From assembly GCA_013289395.1 (NCBI GenBank), contig JABCZY010000010.1, positions 1 to 36,924 on the forward strand: a DNA stretch of 36,924 nucleotides, given 5' to 3'. Positions 2,017-18,550 of the stretch are shown in pieces. How positions within the stretch are numbered: position 1 is the first letter of the stretch; each line of letters starts with the position of its first letter. The position numbers and the translations under genes are program-made. Below the pieces are notes generated by a model. That model made no database searches. It saw only the letters and a program-made list of their open reading frames with translations, and was not told the DNA's origin. The DNA is from Bacteroidota bacterium (lineage in GTDB: Bacteria > Bacteroidota > Bacteroidia > JABEUT01).

Positions 2017-3564
2017 ATGAAAAAAAGGTTTGACATAGTATATTTCGTTGCAGGCTTATTGCTTGCGTTCTTAGTTTTTTTTCCGGGCATTTCTTCCGCG
2101 CAAAAAACAAAGGAAGGATATAATAAGCTTTACTATGCTAATGGAAAACTTTCGAGTGAAGGTACTATACGGAACGGTAAACCTGATGGATATTGGAAAA
2201 CATATTATGAGAGTGGCAAAATAAAATCAGAGGGTAATAGAAAAGAGTATGTGCTTGATAGTATCTGGAATTTTTATACTGAAAAAGGATTGATGTATGT
2301 TTCATTCAGCTATAAAAACGGAAAGAAGAATGGATTTAAATCGAATTTTACATACGATGCGAAAGACAGTTCGAAAAGTGTGCTGGTATCAAAAGAGAAT
2401 TATGTTAATGATACATTGCAAGGGCAATCGTATTATTTTAAGAATAACAAACTGTCGAGGATCACAACTTATAAGGATGGGTTAGCAGAAGGAAAAGCAT
2501 TTGATTTTTCGCCCGACTCGTTGATAACAGTTATTACACTCTACAAAGGAGGCTTTGTAAAAAAGGTAACCAGGATCAATCAGTATAATACTGCGGGACA
2601 TAAAGATGGATTGTGGCAAACCTTTTACGCGAACGGAAACGTTAAGTGGGAAGGAACTTACAATGATGGAAAGAAAGATGGGTATTTTAAAACGTATACA
2701 GATGCCGGAAGCTTAATCACTATTGAAAAATATATTAGCGATGTGTTGCAGACCGATGCGCCTGAATTAGCAAAGCTTGAAACGCATACTGAATATTATG
2801 ATAATGGAAGAGTAAAATCAGAAGGTCCTTTGAAGAACGGAAAACCTTTTGGTGTGCACCATGAATATGATGAAACAGGTAAGCCGGTGAAAGCGGAAAT
2901 ATATGACAGTGGTAGAGTAATGGCTGAAGGTGTTTTAGATACAGCTGGACTGCAGCAAGGTGAATGGAAAGAATATTATGAGAACGGACAAATGAAATCG
3001 ATTGGGAAATACCTGAATGGAAATAAAATTGGCCAGTGGAAATATTTTTATACCAGTTCTAAAGTATTTGAAATTGGTAAGTACGATAACCAGGGCCGCC
3101 AGCAGGGAAAATGGGTATGGTATTTTGATAATGGAAAAACACGAAGAGAAAGTAATTTCTTAAACGGGCAGGAAGATGGCGACTTTATAGAGTATGCAGA
3201 TAGCGGAGGTGTAATTACAAAGGGGCAATATGTTGAAGGATTGCGTGAAGGTATCTGGACCTATGAACTTGGCAACTATCGTTCGATTGGTAAATATACC
3301 GACGACCAGCAAGACAGTTTATGGAAGGAGTATTACATAGATGATAACAAAGTACGTTTCCAGGGGAATTACAACCAGGGCAGGCCCGATGGTACGCATA
3401 CCTGGTATTACCCTGATGGAAAGAAACAAATTGAAGGGCAATTCACCATGGGTGTAATGGAAGATAAGTGGAGATATTACGATGAAGCAGGAAATCTATT
3501 CCTTACCATCACTTACAAAGACGATGTAGAAATAAAATACGATGCAGTAAAAGTCCTGCAGTAA
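2017..3564 (+). CDS. Exported MORN/YwqK-type repeat protein
   Basis: A 515-residue protein with a hydrophobic signal peptide (about residues 8-29, ending ISSAQ) followed almost wholly by 20-24 residue repeats. Each repeat follows the pattern YYxNGKxKxEGxxxxGKxDGxWKxYY, typical of MORN_2 repeats and often labelled 'YwqK family antitoxin' in automatic annotation. About a dozen copies are visible, some degenerate around residues 100-190. Such repeats form elongated beta sheets. Bacteroidota carry many exported versions of unknown function, so no toxin-antitoxin role should be assumed. It starts three bases after nadA and ends in a convergent terminator. Confidence 0.8.
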   Translation: MKKRFDIVYFVAGLLLAFLVFFPGISSAQKTKEGYNKLYYANGKLSSEGTIRNGKPDGYWKTYYESGKIKSEGNRKEYVLDSIWNFYTEKGLMYVSFSYKNGKKNGFKSNFTYDAKDSSKSVLVSKENYVNDTLQGQSYYFKNNKLSRITTYKDGLAEGKAFDFSPDSLITVITLYKGGFVKKVTRINQYNTAGHKDGLWQTFYANGNVKWEGTYNDGKKDGYFKTYTDAGSLITIEKYISDVLQTDAPELAKLETHTEYYDNGRVKSEGPLKNGKPFGVHHEYDETGKPVKAEIYDSGRVMAEGVLDTAGLQQGEWKEYYENGQMKSIGKYLNGNKIGQWKYFYTSSKVFEIGKYDNQGRQQGKWVWYFDNGKTRRESNFLNGQEDGDFIEYADSGGVITKGQYVEGLREGIWTYELGNYRSIGKYTDDQQDSLWKEYYIDDNKVRFQGNYNQGRPDGTHTWYYPDGKKQIEGQFTMGVMEDKWRYYDEAGNLFLTITYKDDVEIKYDAVKVLQ

Positions 3565-3595
3565 TTACCACAGGACTTATTCATTCATTTTATTT
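3551..3595. terminator. Bidirectional hairpin terminator between convergent genes
   Basis: AAGTCCTG at 3551-3558 pairs perfectly with CAGGACTT at 3571-3578, and the loop contains the self-complementary GTAATTAC. A T-rich tract follows on the plus strand. The left arm overlaps the last codons of the MORN-repeat gene, and the right side runs into the stop of the leftward hydrolase gene, so it could serve both. Confidence 0.65.
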
Positions 3596-4123
3596 GCACC
3601 ATTCATCAACTGTCAATACAGTTCCGCGACGTGTAAAAAATTTAGTGGTAAGTAGTTTATGCGTTTCCGGGTCAGGATCAGCACAGCAATCAGATAATAC
3701 GCTAATACGGTAATCTTTATCAGACGCTTCACATGCAGTTGAAAGCACAACTCCGCTTGTGGCAATACCGGTTAATATCATGTGTTTAATACCCGTTGCA
3801 CGCAACACAACTTCCAGATCGCTGCCGGTAAATGCGCTCACACGGCGTTTTGTTATTGTTATTTCGCCTTCTTGTGGCGCCAACTCCGGAAGTATTTTCA
3901 CCCATTCTTCCATGTTCATTTTTCCGAAGCGGTCCCTCATGGCTGCAGTTGCTTCTGGTGCTCCGGGCCTGAAACCGATTACCACATAAATGACAGGTAT
4001 TTTTTTGCTTCGGGCATGTGCAATTGCTTTTTTAACATTGGGTACAAATCCCATAATATCCGGATACATTGCCAGCATAGGCGCTTGCATATCCATTACA
4101 AAAAGAGCTGTGTTTTCTTCCAT
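3590..4123 (-). CDS. Isochorismatase-fold hydrolase lacking the nucleophilic cysteine
   Basis: A 177-residue cysteine-hydrolase/isochorismatase superfamily protein. The triad aspartate is seen as D11 in ALFVMDMQAPM and the lysine as K92 in TITKRRVSAF. The nucleophile region reads GIATSGVVLSTACEASD, where family members with a Cys would have TxxCVxxTA; here that position is G124. Isochorismatases such as PhzD also lack the cysteine and use a vinyl-ether hydrolysis mechanism, so the protein may still be active, but not as a Cys-dependent amidase. The substrate is unknown. It lies 16 bases downstream of the MFS exporter gene and reads the same way, so it probably belongs to the regulon of the divergent GbsR-type regulator. 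Confidence 0.8.
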   Translation of the reverse strand: MEENTALFVMDMQAPMLAMYPDIMGFVPNVKKAIAHARSKKIPVIYVVIGFRPGAPEATAAMRDRFGKMNMEEWVKILPELAPQEGEITITKRRVSAFTGSDLEVVLRATGIKHMILTGIATSGVVLSTACEASDKDYRISVLSDCCADPDPETHKLLTTKFFTRRGTVLTVDEWCK

Positions 4124-4139
4124 AGTGTTTGAGATTTGA

Positions 4140-5408
4140 TTATTGAATATTATCTATTTTCTCTCCTTCGGTTTCCTTAAATTCTTTTTTCTCTTTTTTA
4201 CTTAGCCGGTCGCTTCTCAAAAATTTTGCGAATAGCGCAGCAATTACAAGAGCCAAAATGCCTTGATAGAGCAAGATGGTCGGCTCTCCAAAATACTTTG
4301 AAATAAAACCCGCAAGTAAAGCACCTAGTGGCAACATTCCAAATAAAGACATAGCGACATAGCCCATCACCCTGCCACGCATCTTAGGATCAGAATGAGT
4401 ATGTATAATGGTTAGACAAATAGTGCTTTGGGTCATGGCTCCGAAACCAAACATGGTGGCAAATAACATAGCTAAAGGAAAGTAACTTATGTGAGAGAAT
4501 ACCATTAGGCCAACACCTAAAATTATGGTATTGAATAAGAGAACTATTTTAAGATCAGTGCCTGGTTTAAGGGAAGCGAGAAAAAAAGTACCTACTATTG
4601 CGCCTATACCAATAAAGCTCTTTATATATCCATACGTAGCCACATCGCCTTTAAAGACAACCTTAGCAAAAGCTAACAACAGTGGTTCGTAGGACAAAAC
4701 AAAAAAACTGACTAAACTAAACATCAGTATTATAAGACTTATTGCAGGAGTTCTTTTCAAATACGTAAACCCCTCGGAAAGCTCTGTCATAATTTTCTTC
4801 TTAACCAATGTTGGAGTATGCTTAGGTAGCTTCATTAATAACAATGAGGTTATTACGGCAACAAAACTCAGTGCATTTAGCAGGAAGCAAATACCCGGGC
4901 CATACTTTGCATATACAATGCCAGATAACGCCGGGCCTGCAATCCGGGCTAAATTGACCATGGAAGAATTGAGTGCTACAGCATTAGCGAGGTCTTCTTT
5001 ATTATCTACCATTTCATGTACCATTGGCTGCCGAGCAGGTACATCAAATGCATTTATAGTTGCAAGCAAAGCTGTAAGTGCAAATATTTCCCAGGAAATA
5101 AATTTATTTGTCAGAACTAACACAGCAAGCAAAATTGCCTGTAGCATTGAAGCTGTTTGGGTAATAAGTAATATCTTATATCTGTCGTACCTGTCAGCCA
5201 GAATACCTCCGTATAAGGAAAAGATACAGGTAGGTGCATAAGATGCAAATAAAGTCAGGCTTGCCGTCCATGTAGAGTTTGTCATCGCATACATAAGCCA
5301 TACTAGGCCTGTTCGTTGCATCCAGGTACCGATCTGCGAGATCGTTTGCCCGGTAAAAAAGAGTGCGTAATTGCGATTCTTGAACGCTCTGAATGTTTGT
5401 ATATTCAT
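4140..5408 (-). CDS. MFS transporter, MFS_3/EntS-like exporter
   Basis: A 422-residue inner-membrane protein with about twelve hydrophobic segments. The N-terminus, FRAFKNRNYALFFTGQTISQIGTWMQ, is characteristic of the MFS_3 branch that includes the enterobactin exporter EntS and many uncharacterised drug/metabolite exporters. The loop ADRYDRYKIL after helix 2 matches the MFS motif A. I chose the ATG at 5408, since the frame extends five codons upstream only through a TTG. A TATATTTG -7 box on this strand at 5421-5428 would start transcription around 5414, giving a nearly leaderless mRNA that fits this start. The 18-bp palindrome at 5435-5452 overlaps its promoter. The substrate is not predictable from sequence. 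Confidence 0.88.
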   Translation of the reverse strand: MNIQTFRAFKNRNYALFFTGQTISQIGTWMQRTGLVWLMYAMTNSTWTASLTLFASYAPTCIFSLYGGILADRYDRYKILLITQTASMLQAILLAVLVLTNKFISWEIFALTALLATINAFDVPARQPMVHEMVDNKEDLANAVALNSSMVNLARIAGPALSGIVYAKYGPGICFLLNALSFVAVITSLLLMKLPKHTPTLVKKKIMTELSEGFTYLKRTPAISLIILMFSLVSFFVLSYEPLLLAFAKVVFKGDVATYGYIKSFIGIGAIVGTFFLASLKPGTDLKIVLLFNTIILGVGLMVFSHISYFPLAMLFATMFGFGAMTQSTICLTIIHTHSDPKMRGRVMGYVAMSLFGMLPLGALLAGFISKYFGEPTILLYQGILALVIAALFAKFLRSDRLSKKEKKEFKETEGEKIDNIQ

Positions 5409-5420
5409 GGAAAGGTGGTA

Positions 5421-5428
5421 CAAATATA
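5421..5428 (-). promoter_or_regulatory. Promoter -7 box for the MFS exporter operon
   Basis: Reads TATATTTG on the minus strand, matching TAnnTTTG. It is only 12 bases from the chosen ATG at 5408, implying a leader of a few bases or none. The upstream -33 region lies in or next to the palindrome at 5435-5452, so a bound repressor would block it. Confidence 0.5.
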
Positions 5429-5434
5429 CAATTA

Positions 5435-5452
5435 GTTCTGTAATTACAGAAC
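5435..5452. promoter_or_regulatory. Perfect 18-bp palindromic operator
   Basis: GTTCTGTAATTACAGAAC is completely self-complementary with no spacer. It is centred in the 93-bp gap between the divergent MFS exporter and the GbsR/MarR-type regulator, between the two -7 boxes. It is the natural candidate binding site for that regulator, which would repress the exporter-hydrolase operon and itself. This is inferred from symmetry and position. Confidence 0.7.
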
Positions 5453-5464
5453 CAAAAAAACTAT

Positions 5465-5472
5465 TATATTTG
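5465..5472 (+). promoter_or_regulatory. Promoter -7 box for the GbsR-type regulator
   Basis: TATATTTG matches the Bacteroidota -7 consensus. Transcription would start near 5478, giving a leader of about 23 bases to the ATG at 5502. The region where a -33 element is expected falls inside the palindrome, consistent with autoregulation. Confidence 0.5.
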
Positions 5473-5501
5473 TTTTCTGATAACCTCCATTATCTGAGAA
5501 A

Positions 5502-5978
5502 ATGAAAGTAGAAAAAAAACTGTCAGCAAAAGACTATGTTGAAAAGATAGGAGTATCTTTTGAAAAGGAAGGATTTCAGCCCGCCATGGGAAGAATATTT
5601 GCCTACCTAATCATCGCTGACCCGCCTCACAAATCTTTTGAAGAAATACTTGAGTATCTGAAGATCAGCAAAAGTGCAGTGAGTACATCATTGAATTACC
5701 TGATGTCCAGAGACCTGGTGGAATACATTACATTACCCGGTGACAGGAAGCGATATTTCAAAATAAATATGTCGGGTTGGTTAACACTGATAAAAAAGAA
5801 AATGGCCAGGCGTAGTTTTTTTGGTGAAATAATGAAGGAAGCTTTAAGCGCCCGTTCGAATAAATACAAGGAATTCAATGATGCATTAGAAGAACAGGCC
5901 GAGTTTTTGGATTTTATGCATAAAGAGATGAAAGACGCCCTCGATAAATGGGAAAGAAAGAAAAAAAAGAAGGGTTAA
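5502..5978 (+). CDS. GbsR/MarR-type winged-helix transcriptional regulator
   Basis: A 158-residue protein. Residues 25-95 form a winged helix: GRIFAYLIIADPPHKSFEEI, then the recognition region LKISKSAVSTSLNYLMSRDLV, then a wing with LPGDRKRYF. This is the GbsR-like branch of MarR-type regulators, whose members often control compatible-solute or efflux genes. The C-terminal third is a charged helix that probably dimerises, ending in a lysine run (KKKKK). The gene diverges from the MFS exporter across a perfect palindrome, and the exporter and hydrolase are the likely targets. No ligand can be inferred. The downstream TonB receptor has its own -7 box and is not necessarily co-regulated. Confidence 0.82.
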   Translation: MKVEKKLSAKDYVEKIGVSFEKEGFQPAMGRIFAYLIIADPPHKSFEEILEYLKISKSAVSTSLNYLMSRDLVEYITLPGDRKRYFKINMSGWLTLIKKKMARRSFFGEIMKEALSARSNKYKEFNDALEEQAEFLDFMHKEMKDALDKWERKKKKKG

Positions 5979-5987
5979 CAATTTCCG

Positions 5988-5995
5988 TACATTTG
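5988..5995 (+). promoter_or_regulatory. Promoter -7 box for the TonB receptor
   Basis: TACATTTG matches TAnnTTTG. It would give a leader of about 60 bases before the ATG at 6062. No clear TTG -33 element is seen, so the match rests on the -7 box alone. Confidence 0.4.
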
Positions 5996-8390: not shown

Positions 8391-9194
8391 ATGAGAAAAT
8401 ATAGATTATACATTGTGTTAGGGGTGATTGCAATTATTTCTTCTTGCCAAAAAGTTATTAATATTGATCTGAACTCAGTAAACCCAGCAATAATAATTGT
8501 AGGTAATATTAATGATCAGCCAGGACCTTATTCAGTTATATTAAGCCAAACGGTTAATTTCAGTGACCCTAATACCTTCCCTCCTATTGACGGCGCTTTT
8601 GTTACCATTGCGGATAATGCAGGTACAACCGATACATTGGTAGAAACAACAAAGGCGGGAACCTATAATACAACAAAATTAATTGGTGTGCCTGGCAGAA
8701 CGTATACACTTACTGTGAATGCAAATGGCAAGACCTATCAATCTGTTAGCACCATGCCACAGCCAATTAAATTCGATACACTTTACATATACGCGCACTT
8801 AAGTTTTTTCAGCAAGGGCGGGCCGCCTGATACGGTTTATACGCCGCTCGTTGAGTTTCAGGATCCGGGAAATTCAATGAATTACTTTAGATATATTGAA
8901 ACGATGAATGATACTTTGCTTACAAACGTTATGACCTCTGATGATCAGTTTTCAAGCGGGAAAATGGTCTACTACCCTATTCGTTCGGAAGGTCATACTG
9001 TACTTGTTGGGGATAGTATAAAAGTTGAAATGCAATGCATTGACAAAGGAACGTATCAATACCTCTCTACCTTGGGTGAAGCTTCTGGCTCTACTAACGT
9101 AACACCTTCAAACCCGGTGTCGAATATTTCGAATAATGCATTGGGTTATTTCAGTGCGCATACATCACGGTATAAGGTGGCTAAGATTCAGTGA
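8391..9194 (+). CDS. DUF4249 family lipoprotein
   Basis: A 267-residue surface or periplasmic lipoprotein. The start ATG at 8391 gives MRKYRLYIVLG and a lipobox ending in C19 (IISSCQK). The frame also continues upstream from a TTG inside the TonB gene, which I rejected because the ATG lies four bases after the receptor stop. The mature part opens with IDLNSVNPAIIIVGNIND, followed by beta-rich repeats with GPYSVILSQTVNF, as in DUF4249. These proteins almost always follow a TonB receptor in Bacteroidota and are thought to be its surface partner, by analogy with SusD. No biochemical role is established. Confidence 0.85.
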   Translation: MRKYRLYIVLGVIAIISSCQKVINIDLNSVNPAIIIVGNINDQPGPYSVILSQTVNFSDPNTFPPIDGAFVTIADNAGTTDTLVETTKAGTYNTTKLIGVPGRTYTLTVNANGKTYQSVSTMPQPIKFDTLYIYAHLSFFSKGGPPDTVYTPLVEFQDPGNSMNYFRYIETMNDTLLTNVMTSDDQFSSGKMVYYPIRSEGHTVLVGDSIKVEMQCIDKGTYQYLSTLGEASGSTNVTPSNPVSNISNNALGYFSAHTSRYKVAKIQ

Positions 9195-10546: not shown

Positions 10547-11512
10547 ATGGAAATTACTCCGGAAATAGTTAATCGTATAAAGCAACTGGATGAAAAATAC
10601 CAGGCTATGGGTCAGGATATGAACTCGTACCTTGATGGTTTGCTTTACATGGATTATTTGAAGTACTGGGATTATGTTCATACTGATACCCTACTCTCGC
10701 TTCAGAACCCCAGAACTAATTTTCCGGATGAGAAGATCTTCATCATGTACCATCAGATCACAGAATTGTTCTTTAAGCTCTGTATACATGAATTTGAACA
10801 GATAGCTAATCACCCTACCCTTACAGCTAAGTTTTTATTGGAAAGAACCAGGCGTATTGTTCGGTATTTTGATGGTCTTGTTACCACCTATGACATCATG
10901 GTAGATGGCATGGATAAGGAGCAGTTTTTGAAGTTCCGTATGGCCCTATTACCTGCCAGTGGATTCCAATCTGCACAGTATAGAATGATAGAGCTGTACT
11001 CAACGGATATGATCAACCTGGTGCATAGAGAATACCTTGCTAAGAACCCTAAAATTAGGGATGCTTCGGTAGCAGAGAAGCATGAACATATTTATTGGAA
11101 GACGGGGGCAACTGAACTGGCTACTGGAAGAAAAACGTTAACCTTGAAACAATTTGAGGAGAAGTACGGTGATGAGTTTGTCAGGTTAGCTGAGGCATGT
11201 GTAAAGGGAAATATTTATGCTAAATTCAAGAGCCTTCCTGAAGCAGATCAGAAGAACCCTGAGCTGATAAATACCCTTAGGGAATTAGATGCGAATGTTA
11301 ATGTAAACTGGTGCTTGATGCATTACAAATCTGCGGTTAGATACTTACAAGGCGACCCGGATATTATAGCCGCTACAGGCGGTACGAATTGGCAAAAATA
11401 CCTGCCTCCTCGCTTCCAACGGGTAACCTTTTATCCTGAACTTTGGACCGATCAGGAACTAGCTGAATGGGGTAAGACCTGGGTCAAGAAAATCGTTCCA
11501 AACGCGGTATAG
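10547..11512 (+). CDS. Tryptophan 2,3-dioxygenase family haem protein
   Basis: A 321-residue protein of the tryptophan 2,3-dioxygenase family, which opens the indole ring of tryptophan to N-formylkynurenine using haem and O2. Matches are IMYHQITELFFKL with distal H69, RMALLPASGFQSAQYRMIE with R131, MHYKSAVRYL with candidate proximal haem ligand H259, and ATGGTNW at 276-282 followed by YPELW. It is longer than typical bacterial enzymes (about 280 residues) through extra sequence around 165-235. No kynureninase or formamidase gene adjoins it, so substrate and pathway are open. It follows the VIT1-like transporter by 11 bases. Its TAG stop shares its G with the first parS-like palindrome. Confidence 0.85.
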   Translation: MEITPEIVNRIKQLDEKYQAMGQDMNSYLDGLLYMDYLKYWDYVHTDTLLSLQNPRTNFPDEKIFIMYHQITELFFKLCIHEFEQIANHPTLTAKFLLERTRRIVRYFDGLVTTYDIMVDGMDKEQFLKFRMALLPASGFQSAQYRMIELYSTDMINLVHREYLAKNPKIRDASVAEKHEHIYWKTGATELATGRKTLTLKQFEEKYGDEFVRLAEACVKGNIYAKFKSLPEADQKNPELINTLRELDANVNVNWCLMHYKSAVRYLQGDPDIIAATGGTNWQKYLPPRFQRVTFYPELWTDQELAEWGKTWVKKIVPNAV

Positions 11513-11525
11513 TTCCACGTGGAAC
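11512..11525. promoter_or_regulatory. parS-like site 1
   Basis: GTTCCACGTGGAAC, a perfect 14-bp palindrome with core CACGTG. It differs from the classical parS (TGTTTCACGTGAAACA) by one symmetric base per half site. Its first G is the last base of the dioxygenase stop codon. Confidence 0.75.
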
Positions 11526-11540
11526 GGTGGCATAGCCACC
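11526..11540 (+). terminator. Small perfect hairpin after the dioxygenase gene, possible terminator
   Basis: GGTGGC-ATA-GCCACC forms a 6-bp GC-rich stem with a 3-base loop directly after parS-like site 1 and 13 bases past the dioxygenase stop. No uninterrupted T tract follows (CCTTATCCGCTTG, then T-rich), so rho-independent termination is uncertain. Confidence 0.35.
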
Positions 11541-11552
11541 CCTTATCCGCTT

Positions 11553-11816
11553 GTTTATTTTTGCTAAGAATACTTTGTCGTTCCACGTGGAACGAACTAA
11601 ATATTTTTCGCTTGTAACCTACCATATTTTTTCTACCGAAAAACTGCTTTTTGAGTATCTTTTTTCAAACATATTTAAGCCCTCACCTATCCCTGTTGCA
11701 TATCTTACCGGGGTTTATTTTAATGAGAATACTTGTTCAAAAACGTATGCCATGGTCTACCTATTTCCATATCTAAATCGAACGATTTAATGCGTTTATT
11801 TAATAGAATATCTTAG
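11553..11816 (+). repeat. Three degenerate ~23-bp direct repeats
   Basis: Copies at 11553-11577, 11713-11734 and 11794-11816 share the pattern GTTTATTT, a short variable stretch, then AGAATA and CTT or TCTT. They are unevenly spaced and interleaved with the parS-like palindromes. The match is by eye and the region is AT-rich, so chance similarity is possible. Confidence 0.3.
11579..11594. promoter_or_regulatory. parS-like site 2
   Basis: CGTTCCACGTGGAACG, a perfect 16-bp palindrome holding the same 14-bp core as the other copies. It starts 68 bases after site 1, measured core to core. Confidence 0.75.
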
Positions 11817-11922
11817 TGACGAGCTTCTCTTGTTGGACACGAAACGGGGTTACGTACCAGGGCGAATTGCATGTCATTGTAGACCCCTTACCTGCATGCT
11901 TTTAGTAGTTAAGTGGAGCATT

Positions 11923-11936
11923 ATTCCACGTGGAAC
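11923..11936. promoter_or_regulatory. parS-like site 3 (one variant base)
   Basis: ATTCCACGTGGAAC keeps the 12-bp symmetrical core TTCCACGTGGAA but has A in place of the first G. It is the only imperfect copy, so its affinity may be lower. Confidence 0.65.
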
Positions 11937-12127
11937 ATATCTGCACTACCTTCCTTAATCCTTGCTTAATTGCAGTCTTAATACATGCCCAATAATGGCC
12001 TCATTAGAGGGGTTATTTGCGTGCCTTTTCATATGAAGAACAGAGCCGTTAATCTAGATACTCTTATGAAGTTTGGGTATAAATGATCATTTAATTCTAG
12101 CAGAAATAGGGTAGGGGATTGCACCTT

Positions 12128-12143
12128 CGTTCCACGTGGAACG
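12128..12143. promoter_or_regulatory. parS-like site 4
   Basis: CGTTCCACGTGGAACG, identical over 16 bp to site 2 including the flanking C and G. Confidence 0.75.
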
Positions 12144-12226
12144 GATCTAATATTTCACCCAAATAGGCATGAAAATTGTACCTCAAAAATAGATTTTAGG
12201 GGTAAAATTTCACGGCGCTGTGAGGC

Positions 12227-12244
12227 AGGTTCCACGTGGAACCT
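12227..12244. promoter_or_regulatory. parS-like site 5
   Basis: AGGTTCCACGTGGAACCT, the longest symmetrical copy at 18 bp. It is the nearest to mnmG, about 70 bases from its stop codon. Confidence 0.75.
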
Positions 12245-17708: not shown

Positions 17709-18550
17709 TATTCAGCGAACTTAGCAAAAGCGTGTAAGTGATGGTAAATAGGTGTTTTACCGGTCTTGCCTTTTTTCGGCGGTTTCCTTGTTTGGCGTGG
17801 CCCACAAAGTACAGGTATATACATTACACGGCGGCGGCTTACTGAATCGGTATGTTCAGAATGACCTACCCTGTGCCATATATGGCCATGGTGTACTACT
17901 ACATCACCGGCTTTAGCTACAACCAGAATTTCGTTCTTATCTTCCTTGGTATTACGGTAATACATTTTTGTAAACAACATACCAAAAATACCTTGTGTAT
18001 GGGTCGATGGAAGTATGCGTAAACCTCCATTAACCGCAGAAGAATCGTCGAAGTAAACGCCAATATTTAACATTGGAAATACTTTTTTGGCGTAAAACAC
18101 TTCACGTATAGAGTCGGTATGCCAGCCCATTTGCTTAAAACGGCTGTGCTTTGAATTTACATAGTGATTGAATACAACACCATCGCGCTCATTTTCGCTA
18201 ACACGGCTCGATTTAATATCGAGCAGGCGCTTAAAGCCTTGTATACGAGGGTCAGCAACAAGTTGTTTTATCCTGTCGCTATAGTGTGATGTATATGGGA
18301 AACGTTGAACAATACGTTTTCCGTTTTCGTCGTGCCCAAAAATAACCGGTATGCCTTTTACAACTTTTTCTTTCGATTTTATGAGCTTTTCCTGGGCTGA
18401 TTCATATCCTCCAATAAGTTCTTTTACCTCTTCAGGAGATAGAACATTGCTGAAATGAACGAATCCATATTTATTAAAAAAGTCAGTTTGCTCTTTTGTA
18501 AAAGTAGGCCCAAGTTTAAACTTGGGGTAGTTCTTAAGAGATTTATCCAT
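17708..18550 (-). CDS. Phytanoyl-CoA dioxygenase (PhyH) family Fe(II)/2-oxoglutarate oxygenase
   Basis: A 280-residue non-haem iron oxygenase. The facial triad is visible: H144 and D146 in GWHTDSI, and the distal H226 in HHGHIWHRVGHSE. R240 or R241 (SRRRVMYIP) probably binds the 2-oxoglutarate carboxylate. GGLRILPSTH at 175-184 is also a family signature, as is the N-terminal FFNKYGFVHFSNVLSPEEV. Members hydroxylate varied lipids and small molecules, so phytanoyl-CoA itself should not be assumed. A TATATTTG -7 box on this strand lies 25 bases upstream. It forms a TAATG-coupled pair with the dehydrogenase: the oxygenase could install a hydroxyl that the dehydrogenase then oxidises, but that is inference. 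Confidence 0.88.
   Translation of the reverse strand: MDKSLKNYPKFKLGPTFTKEQTDFFNKYGFVHFSNVLSPEEVKELIGGYESAQEKLIKSKEKVVKGIPVIFGHDENGKRIVQRFPYTSHYSDRIKQLVADPRIQGFKRLLDIKSSRVSENERDGVVFNHYVNSKHSRFKQMGWHTDSIREVFYAKKVFPMLNIGVYFDDSSAVNGGLRILPSTHTQGIFGMLFTKMYYRNTKEDKNEILVVAKAGDVVVHHGHIWHRVGHSEHTDSVSRRRVMYIPVLCGPRQTRKPPKKGKTGKTPIYHHLHAFAKFAE

Follow-up and report, generated by a model that had tools for sequence, protein, structure and literature searches.

A GbsR-type regulator and its predicted operator, conserved across Bacteroidota, between an exporter-isochorismatase pair and a TonB receptor-DUF4249 pair

The window analyzed here is the 36,924-nucleotide stretch of contig JABCZY010000010.1 from a Bacteroidota bacterium (assembly GCA_013289395.1). 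Our subject is a perfect 18-bp palindrome within it, GTTCTGTAATTACAGAAC (5435-5452), which lies between the gene for a GbsR-type MarR regulator and a divergently transcribed major facilitator superfamily (MFS) exporter gene, itself followed by a gene for an isochorismatase-fold protein. Sequence comparison gives good support to the palindrome as the core of an operator belonging to the regulator: of 39 related regulator genes, almost all of them from Bacteroidota, 33 have the consensus TTRGTTC-N10-GAACYAA upstream (0.19 expected from shuffles), and 21 of the 39 have an exact match. The regulator is probably an autorepressor, released by a ligand, that acts through this one shared operator on the MFS-isochorismatase pair in one direction and on itself, and perhaps on a TonB receptor-DUF4249 pair, in the other. 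The parts are ordinary and the wiring is unusual: a repressor-operator pair found across the phylum has here an MFS-isochorismatase pair on one side and a receptor-DUF4249 pair on the other (Table 1).

The palindrome is enclosed by a 24-bp element, TTAGTTCTGTAATTACAGAACCAA, in which 22 of 24 bases are symmetric, and it is the sole match to GTTCTGTAATTACAGAAC in the window at ≤3 mismatches (0.01 expected). Perfect 18-bp palindromes number four in the window where shuffles give 0.4, and a single one at an arbitrary place is therefore unremarkable; a perfect 18-bp palindrome within the 93-bp intergenic gap arose in 5 of 5,000 shuffles. (Another, CCCAAGTTTAAACTTGGG at 18509-18526, lies near the start of the open reading frame [ORF] at 18550-17708.) The first-pass annotation, which had noticed the palindrome between regulator and exporter, described it as central; it does lie between the two start codons, but its position is only approximately central, with 26 bp to the MFS start and 49 bp to that of the regulator. 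Copies of TATATTTG stand on either side of the operator, one on each strand, and are candidate −7 boxes, TAnnTTTG being presumably the −7 box of Bacteroidota.

The consensus was fixed from a sequence, shared and with the same geometry, that was read upstream of 25 loci drawn from a class-wide sample of 396 genomes in which 25 others had the regulator at an E value of 1e-12 or better. Sites were scored within 220 bp upstream of the regulator, with a threshold of ≥12 of 14 positions. Fourteen loci found after the pattern had been fixed made up a hold-out: eight came from a search with a two-row alignment (nine loci, one being the G079 contig again) and six from a phylum-wide sample. A scan of contigs with the single regulator gave none, and the order of G079, with three genomes, held no further regulator. 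The operator was present at 13 of the 14 hold-out loci, 10 of them exact, and none of these 13 has a regulator more than 53% identical to any of the 25 from which the pattern was taken. The total of 33 operator loci comprises 27 of 33 loci plus all six further loci.

A TAnnTTTG-like box lies 9 to 13 bp past the operator in 25 of 34 sites, the window's included; in six none is in reach. L031, the locus of the closest related regulator, has the operator and the same 9-bp spacing to TATATTTG as the window, and its regulator likewise heads a receptor-DUF4249 pair. A second copy of the operator (≥12 of 14) occurs within 200 bp of the regulator stop codon at 15 of 38 loci (0.09 expected; the contig-cut locus L094 was excluded from this count), and at 14 of the 15 it lies 12 to 17 bp past the stop. 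No other observation speaks as strongly as this second copy for the sequence being a regulator target through which the genes that follow are controlled as well. The predicted operator, its conservation with the regulator family, the promoter geometry, and the gene contents all derive from such comparison, which bears out the earlier suggestion that the palindrome is an operator.

Of the 39 fetched regulator neighborhoods, 28 contain RND (resistance-nodulation-division) genes, six contain genes for FtsX-type permeases, and one (L031) contains a TonB receptor-DUF4249 pair; four have none of these. Absence of a neighbor here and below means absence within the fetched flanks, which contig ends shorten at L031 (383 bp before the regulator), L039, L047, L054, L094, and L105. 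Neighbors were named by similarity to a few proteins; the RND, HlyD, OEP (outer-membrane efflux protein), and FtsX queries were checked with Pfam, and other names were given by eye. The 28 RND loci do not all share one arrangement, because the RND gene is nearly 4 kb off at L047 and L049 and precedes the regulator at L048. At five loci (L053, L054, L105, L106, and L107), a gene of ∼250 to 270 codons comes after the regulator, along with two permease-like genes, identified as FtsX by Pfam at L053 and by similarity at the other four; the site has the form TTCA-N8-TGAAC at all five.

Judged from sequence, repressor and operator belong to a type characteristic of Bacteroidota and mostly situated near RND pump genes. 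In the parts of the work on the GbsR family that we draw on (PMC6207618), no consistent neighborhood picture is given for the Bacteroidetes GbsR-type regulators. TetR regulators adjoin efflux operons of Flavobacterium and Riemerella, according to the portions of PMC10197871 and PMC5727081 used here, so not every such Bacteroidota operon goes with a GbsR-type regulator. A search of titles and abstracts on GbsR or MarR together with Bacteroidetes efflux found no published description of the operator motif, which does not establish novelty. With a promoter operator, a second copy at many loci, and RND genes nearby, the Bacteroidetes group would gain a consistent picture, and an unexplained group of regulators would become one whose regulons are predictable from sequence; the window would then be the same switch joined to other transport genes.

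We propose that a dimer of the GbsR-type MarR regulator bound to 5432-5455 would repress two face-to-face promoters, the operator lying against both −7-like boxes. The minus-strand promoter would drive the MFS exporter and the isochorismatase-fold protein, and the plus-strand promoter would drive the regulator itself (autorepression). The TonB receptor and DUF4249 protein would be expressed either by read-through from the regulator promoter or from a promoter of their own. A small molecule bound by the repressor would free the operator, raising both units together. Binding, repression, ligand release, cotranscription of the receptor, and a compound that is transported or modified are what we infer from this arrangement. 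A broader idea, which we put forward as speculative and on balance quite unlikely, is that one GbsR-type family with TTRGTTC-N10-GAACYAA forms a phylum-wide switch for envelope transport, mainly by RND systems, that has here been rewired into a circuit to take in, convert, and expel a compound. If that were true, the receptor pair of the outer membrane would be raised together with the exporter of the inner membrane and its non-canonical isochorismatase-fold enzyme.

The alternative that survives best, although we consider it somewhat unlikely, is that the regulator serves the receptor-DUF4249 operon, and senses a nutrient or metallophore, with additional control over an exporter that removes the used or toxic ligand. 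The closest related regulator (L031; 55% identity) heads a TonB receptor-DUF4249 pair that starts 4 bp downstream. In addition, the MFS protein resembles the enterobactin exporter EntS, below its cutoff (147 versus 324 bits), and a TonB transporter and neighboring DUF4249 protein of B. thetaiotaomicron work together, according to the part of PMC11003636 drawn on here. On the other side, 34 of the 39 relatives have genes for RND systems or FtsX-type permeases nearby and just one has a receptor pair beside it, and searches of the receptor-bearing genomes of the same genus gave no regulator. The pair following the regulator, in the window as in L031, is absent from the first-pass annotation and does not fit the first-pass description of a self-contained system of one regulator and two effectors.

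All 10 same-genus genomes have a relative of the receptor (a contig-end fragment in G004). Ten loci from nine genomes were read out of 16 receptor matches, and at all 10 a DUF4249 match comes after the receptor. The window's own genome has a paralog at C61. Either the regulator joined the receptor pair or it was lost in the sister genomes. In one sister genome (L132), the receptor-DUF4249 pair adjoins HlyD, ABC, and ABC-2 genes; at L134 it is preceded by a TetR gene and followed by a gene for outer-membrane efflux, and an HlyD-like fragment in L134 has no Pfam match. These two of the 10 same-genus loci hint that the receptors go with export systems.

We think it improbable that the palindrome serves only for autoregulation of the regulator (with or without its downstream genes), the divergent MFS-isochorismatase pair having landed alongside and being uncontrolled. 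Across the phylum the operator does track the regulator and not the pair: the GbsR-type operator (≥13 of 14) is present at none of the 12 related isochorismatase loci read, to which an isochorismatase search of the phylum sample added no new locus, and neither the MFS nor the isochorismatase gene was found within the fetched flanks of any of the 39 regulator loci. The window thus joins two modules that are otherwise apart in our sample. Neither the four-part layout in relatives nor the palindrome upstream of orthologous pairs, both of which the first-pass annotation had led us to look for, was seen in these sets; lack of the second is the outcome that the annotation itself had named as refuting. 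L031, too, has its operator with no MFS start opposite within the 383 bp before the regulator. Set against these points, only 3 bp separate the operator from the MFS-side TATATTTG and 26 bp separate the palindrome from the MFS ATG, a placement at which a bound dimer should block the MFS promoter; furthermore, a different MarR gene lies upstream in six of the 12 other isochorismatase loci, an indication that such a pair normally has a regulator.

At six of the 12 loci, an MFS gene homologous to that of the window adjoins the isochorismatase gene, and five of these six have a MarR gene upstream; L086, which has a MarR gene and another MFS, completes the six with MarR. No MFS is seen at the remaining five loci, two of which (L081 and L084) are cut by contig ends. 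The five MarR-MFS-isochorismatase operons, all of Bacteroidota (L075, L077, L078, L079, and L083), encode MarR proteins of 141 to 142 amino acids (aa) that are 46 to 72% identical to that of L079. In four of them (L075, L077, L078, and L079), TTGTAAGGTAAACTAACAAGTT occurs 24 bp before the MarR ATG, with one variant base in two, and is a likely operator of the MarR in these operons. The window has no match to TTGTAAGGTAAACTAACAAGTT at ≤3 mismatches, and no such MarR was found in its own half-complete assembly. These operons and the window have in common the homologous MFS (53 to 65% identity) and the isochorismatase; they differ in the upstream regulator, which in the operons is a different MarR, four of the five with TTGTAAGGTAAACTAACAAGTT.

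The five operons suggested that a regulator had been replaced at one locus. We do not hold firmly to this, since a supported set (100/99) in the MFS tree unites the proteins of G009 and G010, from the same genus, with the second MFS of G266 and leaves out that of the window, which makes a separate arrival of the pair as likely as replacement. The window row is unresolved in the isochorismatase tree. In the regulator tree, the rows of the window and L031 are nearest to each other, at a fork that is not among the supported ones.

A role as RNA terminator or hairpin in place of operator is highly improbable for the palindrome: a terminator scan does list a minus-strand match at 5455-5432 (10 pairs, 3 G-C), but the palindrome is upstream of both starts, stands 9 to 13 bp from a −7-like box in most relatives, and has a second copy past the regulator gene at 15 of 38 loci.

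The window's own assembly is only about half complete (52%), which limits searches there both for a regulon and for MarR. It has one exact site for the operator pattern and none at 1 mismatch; at ≤2 mismatches there are 24 matches versus 21 in the reversed control. A scan with the palindrome found only three other matches, each with 3 mismatches, of which those in L003 and L004 are within ORFs and that in L005 is outside any ORF of ≥80 aa. We rejected a wider regulon in this genome, since the 2-mismatch matches were not above the reversed control and the palindrome matches yielded no promoter candidate.

Several observations weigh against the circuit of one shared operator and a ligand-released autorepressor. 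Six of the 39 regulator loci are without the operator: L034 (11 of 14), L047, L048, L049, L052, and L094. At L047, L048, and L049, the regulator is closely behind a gene on the same strand, so that the promoter may lie further upstream. L094 is a real miss, because its regulator is 70% identical to that of L040, which carries the site. Six pairs of loci have regulators at least 80% identical, and the locus counts are therefore not independent. The exporter pair is linked to this regulator in the window only. On the receptor side, the 83-bp gap between regulator and receptor holds no operator (best score, 9 of 14); this and a possible promoter box of its own mean that the receptor may be outside the regulon. 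No regulator match (E value of 1e-8) was found in the 10 same-genus genomes, three of which are ≥90% complete and most of which are incomplete. The 10 same-genus receptor loci read likewise gave no operator, with little upstream sequence in L128, L114, and L131; in those genomes the receptor would thus be independent of the repressor. As a separate matter, the L094 record is titled Oligoflexia, the regulator fragment lies at its end, and L040 belongs to the class of the window; the fragment could reflect either transfer or a mixed assembly.

The assignment of the regulator to the GbsR type by the first-pass annotation agrees with our structural comparisons. The AlphaFold2 model has a mean pLDDT (predicted local distance difference test) of 90.3, and 4nb5 and Mj223 (1ku9) came first by E value among solved structures, by sequence and by fold alike; for 1ku9 the fold E value is 9.0e-09, with a template modeling (TM) score of 0.60, and the sequence E value is 7.3e-07. 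By TM score, 5jbr is higher, at 0.74. The protein has a MarR winged helix and long C-terminal helices and resembles Mj223 in this. It scores below the cutoff for CudC, a named GbsR-like equivalog (28.1 versus 218 bits), and its best NCBIfam match, MsvR, is also under cutoff (29.6 versus 220), which makes it a relative of the GbsR group and no named member.

As first described, the divergent MFS gene is followed after 16 bases by the isochorismatase-fold gene (stop at 4140, start at 4123). A longer MFS ORF from a TTG at 5423 would begin inside the −7-like box, and we prefer the ATG at 5408. No named substrate class (EntS, Tet, or Mef) could be assigned, as all 11 NCBIfam matches of the MFS protein are under their cutoffs. 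The isochorismatase domain of the second protein is clear; its description as a hydrolase is doubtful. Asp11 and Lys92 are kept, and Val125 aligns with the Cys of a related amidase (6azo), which we take to be the catalytic one of an Asp-Lys-Cys triad. Across 13 aligned isochorismatase-fold proteins, the window's included, none has Cys at this position and all have the motif ATSGVVLST or a close form; by this comparison, a cysteine hydrolase is doubtful. Overall, the earlier interpretation of the locus is partly supported.

Two further features of the window lie outside the proposed circuit. A weak terminator-like match at 3560-3543 overlaps the inverted repeat beyond the isochorismatase gene; there are four such matches in the region versus 2.3 in shuffles. 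Between the genes for tryptophan 2,3-dioxygenase and gidA/mnmG (Pfam), at 11512-12242, the window has four exact sites for GTTCCACGTGGAAC (11512, 11580, 12129, and 12229) and one with 1 mismatch (11923), compared with 0.01 expected. These sites resemble parS sites, which may place the window close to the origin of the chromosome.

Table 1. Coordinates of the features at the regulator locus (window positions)
Feature	Position	Strand	Remarks
Predicted operator TTAGTTCTGTAATTACAGAACCAA (perfect palindrome 5435-5452)	5432..5455		14/14 to TTRGTTC-N10-GAACYAA
TATATTTG, candidate −7 box of regulator promoter	5465..5472	+	9 bp past operator
TATATTTG, candidate −7 box of MFS promoter	5421..5428	-	3 bp from operator 24-mer, MFS side
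GbsR/Mj223-type MarR regulator, 158 aa	5502..5978	+	Pfam MarR_2, 37.6 bits; 4nb5 and 1ku9 by sequence and fold
MFS_3 exporter-like protein, 422 aa from ATG	4140..5408	-	Pfam MFS_3, 174.9 bits (gathering score 27)
Isochorismatase-fold protein, 177 aa	3590..4123	-	Pfam PF00857, 132.5 bits; Asp11 and Lys92 present; Val125
Inverted repeat, possible terminator	3551..3578		Between converging ends of isochorismatase and MORN-repeat genes
TACATTTG, possible second promoter box before receptor gene	5988..5995	+	From sequence
TonB-dependent receptor, 774 aa	6062..8386	+	Pfam barrel, plug, CarbopepD_reg_2; 83 bp past regulator
DUF4249 protein, receptor partner, 267 aa from ATG	8391..9194	+	Pfam PF14054, 91.9 bits

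MepR, the repressor of the multidrug exporter MepA, is among the fold matches of the regulator, at a level (TM score, 0.42 to 0.44) weaker than that of the Mj223 group. Compared with MepR-type efflux repressors, the window adds a TonB receptor with its partner and a gene of the isochorismatase fold. With BT2172-BT2173, the window shares a TonB receptor and an adjoining DUF4249 gene; the part of PMC11003636 that describes this pair mentions no regulator or exporter with it. The named classes of the GbsR family (GbsR, OpuAR, OpcR, and CydE) adjoin osmoprotectant, glycine betaine, or cytochrome bd genes, as given in the portion of PMC6207618 consulted. The window's regulator is like that family, with Mj223 as template, in its similar-size winged helix, its long C-terminal helices, and the position of its gene near transport genes; the Bacteroidetes group as sampled here differs in lying mainly near RND genes, with a shared predicted operator.

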